Source of the DNA: Euzebyales bacterium
GTDB lineage: Bacteria > Actinomycetota > Nitriliruptoria > Euzebyales > JAHELV01
Assembly (NCBI GenBank): GCA_036374135.1
Contig: DASUUK010000042.1
Location: 1-64,000, forward strand
DNA: 64,000 nt
Direction of reading: 5' to 3'
Shown here piece by piece: positions 34,697-37,073 of the stretch. Position 1 is the stretch's first letter; every line of letters begins with the position of its first letter. Both the position numbers and the translations under genes were made by a program. The notes beneath the pieces are model-generated. The model saw nothing but the letters and a program-made list of their open reading frames with translations. It had not been told where the DNA came from and ran no database searches.

Positions 34697-36091
34697 CTAC
34701 TCGAGCCGCATCAGGATCAGCCCGTTGAGCCCGTCCGACGCGATGACCGTGTCGGACTCGAAGAACGGGTAGACGCCCCACGGCCCAGCGAAGATGTTGA
34801 TGTTCTGGCTCATGCTCCGGTTGGGCAGGCGCGGTTCGGTGTCCATGTGCGCGATCTCGGTCAGCACGCCGTCCGCGACGTCCGACGCGTCGAGCACGCG
34901 GACACCGGCCGTGTAGTTGGCCTGCCACACGTTCGTGCCATCCACGAACAGGTTGTGATCGATCGACGCGGCAGGCGAGTCGTAGAACCCGATGAACTCC
35001 GGCGCGTCGAGGTCACGCACGTCGAAGATGTAGGTCCGCGCCGTGTCGGGCAGATCCTCGTTCTGCGGATCGGAGATGCCGAACAGCTCGTCCTCCTCGT
35101 CACCGACGAGCAGGTAGCTGTGGTCCTCGGTCAGCCAGCCCTGGTGGGTGAACGACGCGCCGGGATAGGTCGTCGTCGACAGCTCCTCGATCGCGCTCTT
35201 GTCGCTGACGTCGTAGATGCCGACCTCGAGATCTCCACCGTTGAACACAACGGCGATCTCGGCTCCCTGGTGATCGGCGTCCGGGCCCGCGTACGACACG
35301 ACCTGGGCGTCGTGCGAGTCGATGCCACCGATCTGCGCGACCTCGACGGGCTGGGCGGGGTTCGTAAGGTCGAGCACCACGAGGCTCTCGGCGATGAAGT
35401 CCGGATCGACCGCGGCGTCCTTGGCGACGCCGGTCAGGTAGGCGTAGCCGGTGTCGGTGTTGATCGAGATGTTGTGGGCCGATACGTAGCCCGCGTCGTC
35501 GTACCGACCCACCGGCGTGATGACGGCGGCGTCGGTGCCCGGCTCGACGCGCGTGCGCCCGTCGAGCTGGGTGAGGTCGACGATGGCCACGCCCGCGCCG
35601 CGGACCTCGGTCGTGATGTAGGCGTGATCCTGATAGGTCTTGATGTCCCACCAGAAGTTGCGGATCGTGTCCGGCTCGGTCGTCGGCAGCAGGCCGAGGA
35701 ACTCGGGATCGGCCGGATCGGTGACGCGCACGAAGGCGACACCTGACGAGGTGCCCACCAGCGCGTACTCATCGCCGGTGTCCGGCGAGGTCCATCCCCA
35801 TATGTCCGACAGCCACGAGGCGCCCGTGAAGATCAGGCGCTCCACGCCGAGCTCCGCGTTGGTCAGCTGGCCGAGGAACTCAAGGCCCTCGGTGTCCGGG
35901 AACGGCCCGCGGATCGACGGCATGCCACGTCCTGCTCCGGAGATCCGCTTGACCTCCTCGCCGGACGAATGACCCAGCACCTCCGGATCGTCGTCGGGGC
36001 CTGCGTGGGCGCCCGCACCGGTCATCGTCGCGGCGAGCAGCAGCGCCACCCCGACCGCGGCAAGGATCCGTCCCCGAACCGAACGCGCCAT
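34697..36091 (-). CDS. Choice-of-anchor B (LVIVD-repeat) secreted protein
   Basis: The product is 464 aa; AGGAGGG lies seven bases before the ATG at 36091. A signal peptide (GRILAAVGVALLLAAT) is followed by beta-propeller-like LVIVD repeats. Each contains patterns such as EYALVGTSSGVAFVRVTDPADPEFLG, GVAIVDLTQLDG and YAYLTGVAKD. The C-terminal part HMDTEPRLPNRSMSQNINIF and WGVYPFFESDTVIASD match the choice-of-anchor B pattern. The role is probably cell-surface binding; such proteins vary in their sorting tail and no LPXTG-like tail is present here. Confidence 0.88.
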   Translation of the reverse strand: MARSVRGRILAAVGVALLLAATMTGAGAHAGPDDDPEVLGHSSGEEVKRISGAGRGMPSIRGPFPDTEGLEFLGQLTNAELGVERLIFTGASWLSDIWGWTSPDTGDEYALVGTSSGVAFVRVTDPADPEFLGLLPTTEPDTIRNFWWDIKTYQDHAYITTEVRGAGVAIVDLTQLDGRTRVEPGTDAAVITPVGRYDDAGYVSAHNISINTDTGYAYLTGVAKDAAVDPDFIAESLVVLDLTNPAQPVEVAQIGGIDSHDAQVVSYAGPDADHQGAEIAVVFNGGDLEVGIYDVSDKSAIEELSTTTYPGASFTHQGWLTEDHSYLLVGDEEDELFGISDPQNEDLPDTARTYIFDVRDLDAPEFIGFYDSPAASIDHNLFVDGTNVWQANYTAGVRVLDASDVADGVLTEIAHMDTEPRLPNRSMSQNINIFAGPWGVYPFFESDTVIASDGLNGLILMRLE

Positions 36092-36280
36092 GTCTGACCC
36101 TCCTGACGGCGTGGACCGCCGCTCAGTCTCCCACACCGCCACGCCCGTGTCGCGGGGATCTTCCGACCACCGCGCCACGGCGGATCCGGCCCCGTCAGCC
36201 GGTGGCGGCGATCGTCCCGCCGTCAGAGGTGTATCGATCCGCGGCGCGGGCATCGGTGGCGACCGAGACAAGGAGCACCC

Positions 36281-36460
36281 ATGGCACGGTCCCAGCGCAC
36301 AAGGACAACCGGCAACATCATGCAGCAGGTCGGCCGCATGCTGTCCGGCGGCACCTCCGGCACGAAGGCGCCGGCGCGCGGCCGACGGACGACGCGCCCT
36401 GACCCCCGCCGGCGCCGCAGCGCCAATGGGAAGGGCCTGTTGCGCCGCCTGCTGCGCTGA
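36281..36460 (+). CDS. Small basic protein
   Basis: The product is 59 aa with AAGGAG five bases before the ATG at 36281, the best ribosome site in the neighbourhood. It runs MARSQRTRTTGNIMQQVGRM to KGLLRRLLR, with about 17 Arg/Lys and almost no acidic residues. The N-terminal part could form a helix and the C-terminal half is disordered and basic, so nucleic-acid or membrane binding is possible (inference). No family recognised. It ends 66 bp before the fold-back element. Confidence 0.65.
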   Translation: MARSQRTRTTGNIMQQVGRMLSGGTSGTKAPARGRRTTRPDPRRRRSANGKGLLRRLLR

Positions 36461-36525
36461 CCGACCGCCACGGCGTCGTGGCCGGCGCCCTGCGCTGACG
36501 CGGGACGGCGCCGAAGGCTCCGTCG

Positions 36526-36691
36526 CTAGGGTCTGTCTCCCGGTCCCGGCCGGCATTTGGTCACATCTGCATCCCGGCTCGCGTCGTTGCAGCTCGCGCG
36601 AATACGACCCGGTATGCGTCGCTCACTGCGCCTTGCGAGCCGGGCGCAGCTGCACCCTCGGTGCACGACCGGTCCGAGAGACAGACCCTAG
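36526..36691. mobile_element. MITE-like fold-back element (about 166 bp)
   Basis: The ends are a perfect 14-bp inverted repeat, CTAGGGTCTGTCTC at 36526-36539 and GAGACAGACCCTAG at 36678-36691, continuing imperfectly inward for about 10 more bases. A second perfect inverted repeat, CCCGGCTCGC at 36573-36582 and GCGAGCCGGG at 36635-36644, lies exactly 47 bp inside each end, so the whole element can fold on itself. No reading frame fits. The outer CTAG may be target duplication or part of the repeat. This is the layout of a miniature inverted-repeat transposable element. Its right end supplies the stop codon of the dodecin gene. Confidence 0.7.
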
Positions 36692-36903
36692 TCGATCGAC
36701 TCGTACTTGAACGAGATGGCCAGCCGGGTGCGGAACTGCTTCACGCTCCCGCCCTCCGTCGTCAGGTCCTGTTTGACGACCTCGGCGACGCGCAGGTCGC
36801 GCAGGGTGCCCGACGCCGTCGCAACGGCGTTGCGTGCCGCCTGTTCCCACGACTCGCTGCTGACGCCGACGACCTCGGTCACACGGTACACGCTGTCTGC
36901 CAC
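36688..36903 (-). CDS. Dodecin
   Basis: The product is 71 aa. The GTG at 36903, preceded by AAAGGCGAGGAC, gives the normal dodecin length; upstream ATGs at 36918 and 36930 would add residues not seen in the family. It runs VADSVYRVTEVVGVSSESWEQ to FRTRLAISFKYESID. Dodecins form hollow dodecamers that store flavin or CoA and protect cells from free flavin. The key Trp of the flavin-stacking site is present in SSESWEQAARNAV. The TAG stop (36688-36690) lies inside the end of the fold-back element, so the insertion is at its very end. Confidence 0.9.
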   Translation of the reverse strand: MADSVYRVTEVVGVSSESWEQAARNAVATASGTLRDLRVAEVVKQDLTTEGGSVKQFRTRLAISFKYESID

Positions 36904-37073
36904 GTCCTCGCCTTTCATGCGATTTGACATACCGCGACGCTAACGCGGGAGGCGCGCACGGTAAAGGGGCATCTTGGCCGACATCGCGCCCGGGTCTCAG
37001 ATGACGCCGACGACGGCAACGTCCAACGAGGCTCGAGGCGGCGCGGCACTGGGCGACCGTCCGGGTGCCGGGG

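Follow-up and report, generated by a model that had tools for sequence, protein, structure and literature searches.

A multicopy MITE with IS5-type ends at the stop codon of a dodecin gene in Nitriliruptoria

Introduction

In a Euzebyales bacterium (Nitriliruptoria, Actinomycetota), a palindrome of 166 bp ends exactly in the stop codon of a gene for dodecin. The question raised by this locus is what kind of element the palindrome is, how it came to lie there, and whether its arrival determined where the dodecin protein ends. The DNA analysed, here called the window, is a stretch of 64,000 nucleotides (contig DASUUK010000042.1, positions 1 to 64,000). The answer that is very probably correct is that the palindrome is a small non-coding MITE with IS5-type ends, which inserts into the tetranucleotide CTAG, rebuilds the stop codon TAG and leaves dodecin unchanged.

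Structure of the element

The earlier note on this DNA, made from the sequence alone, described a palindrome with perfect 14-bp ends and a second, symmetric internal repeat of 10 bp, able to fold back on itself and without a transposase, and each of these features held up on analysis (Table 1). The perfect inverted repeat consists of CTAGGGTCTGTCTC (36526-36539) and GAGACAGACCCTAG (36678-36691), and across 30 bp the two ends agree at 24 positions (80%). As single-stranded DNA, the 166-bp element has a predicted folding energy of -51.2 kcal/mol, compared with -32.2 +/- 2.8 kcal/mol for 200 dinucleotide shuffles, none of which equalled it (z -6.8). Between positions 36526 and 36691 there is no transposase, and the element is non-coding; the sole match in an Rfam search was a chance one, scoring 19.1 bits where the gathering cut-off is 268. 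A long open reading frame on the minus strand of the window (34697-36556; 619 amino acids as listed; no Pfam match) has its listed start inside the element, and this start is probably wrong.

The boundary of the element can be placed by comparing its copies: the inner GGG...CCC is invariant, while the outer right base varies (CTAG, CTAT, CTAC, CTAA). Thus the outer C or G together with TA on each side would belong to the target site, and the element proper would extend from about 36529 to 36688, with perfect ends of 11 bp.

Table 1. Features of the element and of the adjoining dodecin gene (positions in the window)
Feature	Position	Strand	Remarks
Whole CTAG-to-CTAG unit (MITE and target-site letters)	36526..36691	.	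166 bp
MITE proper (putative boundaries)	36529..36688	+	160 bp if the duplicated target is TA (36530-36687 if CTAG)
Left terminal inverted repeat	36529..36555	+	perfect for 11 bp, imperfect over about 27 bp
Right terminal inverted repeat	36662..36688	-	inward reading GGGTCTGTCTCTCGGACCGGTCG; compared with IS5-family end
Putative left copy of duplicated target TA	36527..36528	.	within CTAG; from family comparison
Right copy of target TA	36689..36690	.	sequence reading and empty site in G003
Core in common with G015 elements	36554..36664	.	76% identity; terminal repeats of G015 elements unrelated
Internal 10-bp repeat, left arm	36573..36582	+	CCCGGCTCGC; read from sequence
Internal 10-bp repeat, right arm	36635..36644	-	GCGAGCCGGG; read from sequence
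Dodecin gene	36688..36930	-	PF07311, 9e-22; stop codon TAG at 36690-36688, in target site

Copies and distribution

The earlier note had called the palindrome a mobile element, had proposed a search for further copies, and had named their absence as grounds against mobility; further copies were found. The genome from which the window is taken (G000) holds two more full copies (99% and 92% identity) with differing flanks, as well as two fragments, i.e., three full and two partial copies in total. Three congeners, G001, G002 and G003 (all Nitriliruptoria, Actinomycetota), gave 5, 23 and 7 matches, respectively. In G015, a Euzebyales genome of another family, the middle of the element has about 20 matches. 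A survey of 66 genomes of the class gave the core only in the four members of the genus, in G015 and, weakly, in G048, and a 33-base pattern of the core had no match in viral contigs. The named records from a pattern scan are the MAGs Ww637 (Nitriliruptorales) and MGR_bin271 (Euzebyales), the relatives being Nitriliruptoria.

The element in the window is therefore a multicopy MITE, with the attributes by which such elements are recognised in bacteria: it is short and non-coding, has terminal inverted repeats, occurs in dispersed copies, is associated with a target-site duplication and has ends in common with an autonomous IS (in a congener). Short palindromes whose copies lie mostly outside genes, as these do, might also be of the REP/BIME type, moved by a Y1 (RAYT) transposase. 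The probability of this is close to nil: Y1_Tnp (PF01797) is absent from the five genomes that carry the family, with positive controls, and the terminal repeats of the element are genuine and its target sites are CTAG.

The dodecin stop codon and the target site

The element has the dodecin stop codon at its right edge, just as the earlier note had it. The T and A of the codon come from the right target TA, and the G is the terminal base of the element (the complement of C36688). It is from this position, in which the last base of the stop codon physically is the end of the element, that the proposal arose that insertion set the dodecin C-terminus, i.e., that the element made the stop codon and shortened or altered the protein. 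The same note had named dodecins ending identically in relatives without the repeats as evidence against this proposal, and comparison between congeners, on which the evidence for both the C-terminus and the empty site is based, revealed exactly that. The dodecin loci of G001, G002 and G003 are all without the element, and their proteins end in SFKYQSDG*, SFKYEADG* and SFKYEADD*, where the window has SFKYESID*, with the stop at the identical position. In G003 the gene ends in GAC GAC TAG, so that the empty target is GACTAG, which contains a natural CTAG site (GACGACTAGC). Moreover, duplication of TA within CTAG is enough by itself to restore TAG. An element-created stop codon is thus extremely unlikely, which corrects the idea that elements of this kind created such stop codons. 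Very probably, as one part of the explanation given at the outset, the element hit the CTAG that was already the end of the dodecin gene, and the protein remained unaltered.

CTAG is present on both sides of the copy in the window, of most copies in G015 and of most full copies, and those copies in which one side deviates keep the TA (CTAT, CTAC, CTAA). Most simply, the element would insert into CTAG and duplicate TA, duplication of the full CTAG being the alternative. The events can be envisaged as follows. An IS5-family transposase with matching ends would move the non-coding element in trans, insert it into CTAG and duplicate TA (or CTAG), giving C-TA-[GGG...CCC]-TA-G, where the choice of TA over CTAG is suggested by the variable outer base. 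Because the first base of the element is G whichever strand is read, TAG reappears on each side and the neighbouring proteins keep their ends; rebuilding of TAG on both sides by the TA duplication thus makes the insertion silent for the dodecin protein.

Landing at gene ends

In the 64-kb window, CTAG was found 6 times where 167 would be expected from the base composition, and two of the six are the ends of the element. The tetranucleotides GTAC, GATC and CATG, unlike CTAG, are not avoided in the window. Strong avoidance of CTAG is a trait of these genomes, and the sites left are often the TAG stop codon of a gene. Among 59 element ends, 24 coincide with the TAG that closes a coding open reading frame in frame, and only one adjoins coding sequence in another frame, as called by a home-made codon-usage score trained on 167 long open reading frames. 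The other CTAG sites in the same fetched loci (n = 115) comprise 28 gene stops and 7 sites inside genes. An in-frame stop on at least one side is present in about 14 of 22 full copies, which were selected manually out of a list containing spurious pattern pairs as well, compared with the 28 of 115 background sites (Fisher p = 6e-4). The siting at stops is largely due to the CTAG target, and any surplus relative to the background might stem from selection against insertions elsewhere.

Genes flanking the copies or the related IS include, by Pfam, those for SMC, MsrA, a methyltransferase, a HAD hydrolase and adenosine deaminase. At one MITE locus (L130) and one IS locus (L218), both convergent neighbours read to the boundary on the side of the element, so that either side regains its TAG even if a pair of convergent genes meets at a single CTAG site. 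This is a concrete case in which a transposon, by using a tetranucleotide that is rare and avoided and by virtue of the symmetry of CTAG, can land harmlessly at the ends of genes.

A position between convergent genes also invites the view that the host has recruited the element as a bidirectional terminator or as a stabiliser of RNA 3' ends, its mobility being past history. Dodecin (minus strand) and an open reading frame of 59 amino acids (plus strand, 36281-36460) both run towards the element, the RNA hairpin has a predicted energy of -96.6 kcal/mol, many copies lie directly 3' of stop codons, and two-sided changes have preserved pairing at 15 of 53 pairs, more than in all shuffles and slides, in a comparison of only seven related sequences. 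However, a scan for intrinsic terminators on both strands gave no site with a GC-rich hairpin and a T-run, and the presence of a copy at the same gene differs among congeners, which argues against a conserved use at the dodecin locus. Transposition into CTAG would by itself account for the pairing of the terminal repeats and for the nearness to stops, and such recruitment is unlikely.

The helper transposase

The earlier note had found the ends of the element reminiscent of some IS families and had proposed a search for a transposase with matching ends. The likeness was borne out, and such a transposase was located, in the congener G002; in the own draft genome the search came up empty. The right end of the MITE (GGGTCTGTCTCTCGGACCGGTCG) and the left end of the G002 element (GGGCCTGTCTCTCGAACCGGTCG) are identical in 18 of the first 20 nucleotides. 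The transposase of this element matches PF13340 (DUF4096; 97.8 bits) and PF01609 (54.5 bits), and its N-terminal part exceeds the NCBIfam cut-off for NF033580 (IS5 family). The left end of the IS begins CTAGGGCCTGTCTCTCGAACCGGTCG and its other half, on a second contig, ends GAGACACGCTCTAG; joined through an overlap of 141 identical bases, on which this structure depends, the halves give 984 bp from CTAG to CTAG. The insertion is in the CTAG stop of the adenosine deaminase gene. This transposase family has about 25 matches in G018, most of those fetched being bounded by CTAG with ends like GGGCGTGTCTGACGG; intact relatives occur in that genome, and G007 has one intact, CTAG-bounded relative. 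These IS5-family elements (G002, G018, G007) have terminal inverted repeats and a CTAG target as the MITE does, but they are about 1 kb long and encode a transposase, and beyond the ends no likeness to the core of the MITE was seen by eye.

The own genome (115 contigs, 96% completeness) has no PF13340 match and no intact matching transposase, its sole trace being a remnant of 29 amino acids on contig C92. Its copies may therefore be stranded, or their helper unassembled; i.e., they would now be immobile or reliant on an IS that has been lost or lies outside the assembly. As candidate helpers, PF01609 transposases occur in the own genome on contigs C9, C20, C46 and C84, and in the two that were read (C9 and C84) no matching ends were seen. 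An IS5-type transposase in G015 (C203) was rejected as the helper of the G015 elements, its ends being unlike theirs.

IS630-family (Tc1/mariner-like) transposases likewise use TA/CTAG targets, and Correia elements and RUP are IS630-type palindromic MITEs with TA duplication. The ends of IS630-family elements adjoin CTAG in G015 (C223; L222: 937-2089) and in the own genome (C94; L223: 1378), so that two unrelated IS families have a common target here. That an IS630-family rather than an IS5-family transposase moves the MITE could be argued from these two loci and from the relatives in G015 with IS630-like ends (14/20). The ends in the window, however, match IS5 at 18 of 20 positions and IS630 at only 4-6 of 20, which makes an IS630 helper very unlikely and sets the element apart from Correia elements and RUP, even though its G015 relatives look IS630-like. 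A match on C94 of the own genome (GGGTCTGTCTG) was considered as an IS630-linked MITE end and rejected: an IS630 gene lies close by, yet the end of that IS is CTAGTGGGCTGTCGCTGAAGT and differs from the end of the MITE.

A common core under different ends

The core of the element is 76% identical to that of the G015 elements over 111 bp (E = 1.9e-15, one genome searched), with the likeness ending some 28 bp short of either terminus. This core of about 110 bp is combined with no fewer than three unrelated sets of terminal repeats. Two of these are IS5-like; the third, in G015, resembles IS630-family ends. As its ends, the element in the window has CTAGGGTCTGTCTC, two copies of G003 have CTAGGGCCTGTTTGGTGG, and those of G015 have CTAGTGCTCCTCCGYGGAAGT (29 exact ends found). 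The G003 type agrees at 14 of 20 positions with another IS5-type end, CTAGGTCGTGTTTGGTGG, which occurs in G001 and G002. The G015 type agrees with IS5 ends at no more than 10 of 20 positions, and with IS630 ends at 14 of 20 (the C26 copy of G015) and 12 of 20 (C94 of the own genome), the IS630 link thus consisting of short matches, of which one is at an end that has lost its CTAG; in this comparison, the chance of at least 13 of 20 is about 4.5e-4 per position tested. Forms of 77-83 bp without the core occur with both kinds of ends.

Taken at the level of sequence, this suggests, short of proof, that IS5- and IS630-type ends carry a common core. A possible extension, which we regard as tentative and somewhat doubtful, is that the core swaps its ends (IS5-type in the Nitriliruptorales genus, IS630-like in one Euzebyales genome) and persists by switching helpers, with gene stops as harmless landing sites; as both families use the CTAG/TA target, such switching would keep a non-autonomous element going. 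If the exchange of ends is real, a non-autonomous element would here have survived the loss of its helper by gaining the ends of another transposase family, in a form open to testing.

Comparison with known systems

An IS5-type MITE is a known kind of element, and for CTAG there is a precedent. A literature search for MITEs with both stop codons and CTAG gave nothing for the combined terms, and the nearest precedent is MITEPsy1 of Pseudomonas syringae, which passages of its report describe as a non-coding element of about 100 bp, tentatively assigned to IS5, with terminal inverted repeats, a duplicated CTAG (or YTAA) target and demonstrated transposition (PMC3189936). The element in the window is similarly non-coding, bounded by terminal inverted repeats, IS5-type and situated at CTAG. 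The terminal repeats of MITEPsy1 (GGAAGGTCTGAAAAAGCC) differ from its own, and the likeness drawn here is one of description; a duplication of 4 nt is reported for MITEPsy1, whereas here TA and CTAG read alike, and the relevant passages of that report mention no link with stop codons (PMC3189936). QMITE1 and QMITE2 of Coxiella burnetii lie, according to passages of their description, largely in or at gene 3' ends and in some cases supply or abut stop codons; their direct repeats differ, no CTAG target appears in those passages, and they can extend proteins, whereas the element in the window leaves proteins unaltered (PMC5896051). What is less ordinary in the present family is the regular siting at stop codons, where TAG is regenerated exactly, and the persistence of one core under unrelated ends.

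Variant and neighbouring repeats

In four copies of about 200-220 bp in G002 (L014, L022, L026, L033), one arm of the core is swapped for another segment (CTGGTCGCCGTGCC...GACCAGGCGCACGAC), which suggests that the arms are modular. The weak homologue of the core in G048 (C1:34940-35038, L192; 74%) is flanked by another palindromic arm (TCACGGAACTTCGGTCACG / CGTAACCGAAGTTCCGT) and does not have CTAG ends. G028 has many copies of a CTAG-bounded repeat of about 65 bp, CTAGGGCCTGTCTCCCGAAGGGAGTCG...GAGGTGCGTGCTAG (L095, L101, L105, L108, L112-L117). Its first 14 bases are similar to those of the element in the window, but its inside is different and it was rejected as a member of the family; one of its loci (L117) is a tandem pair.
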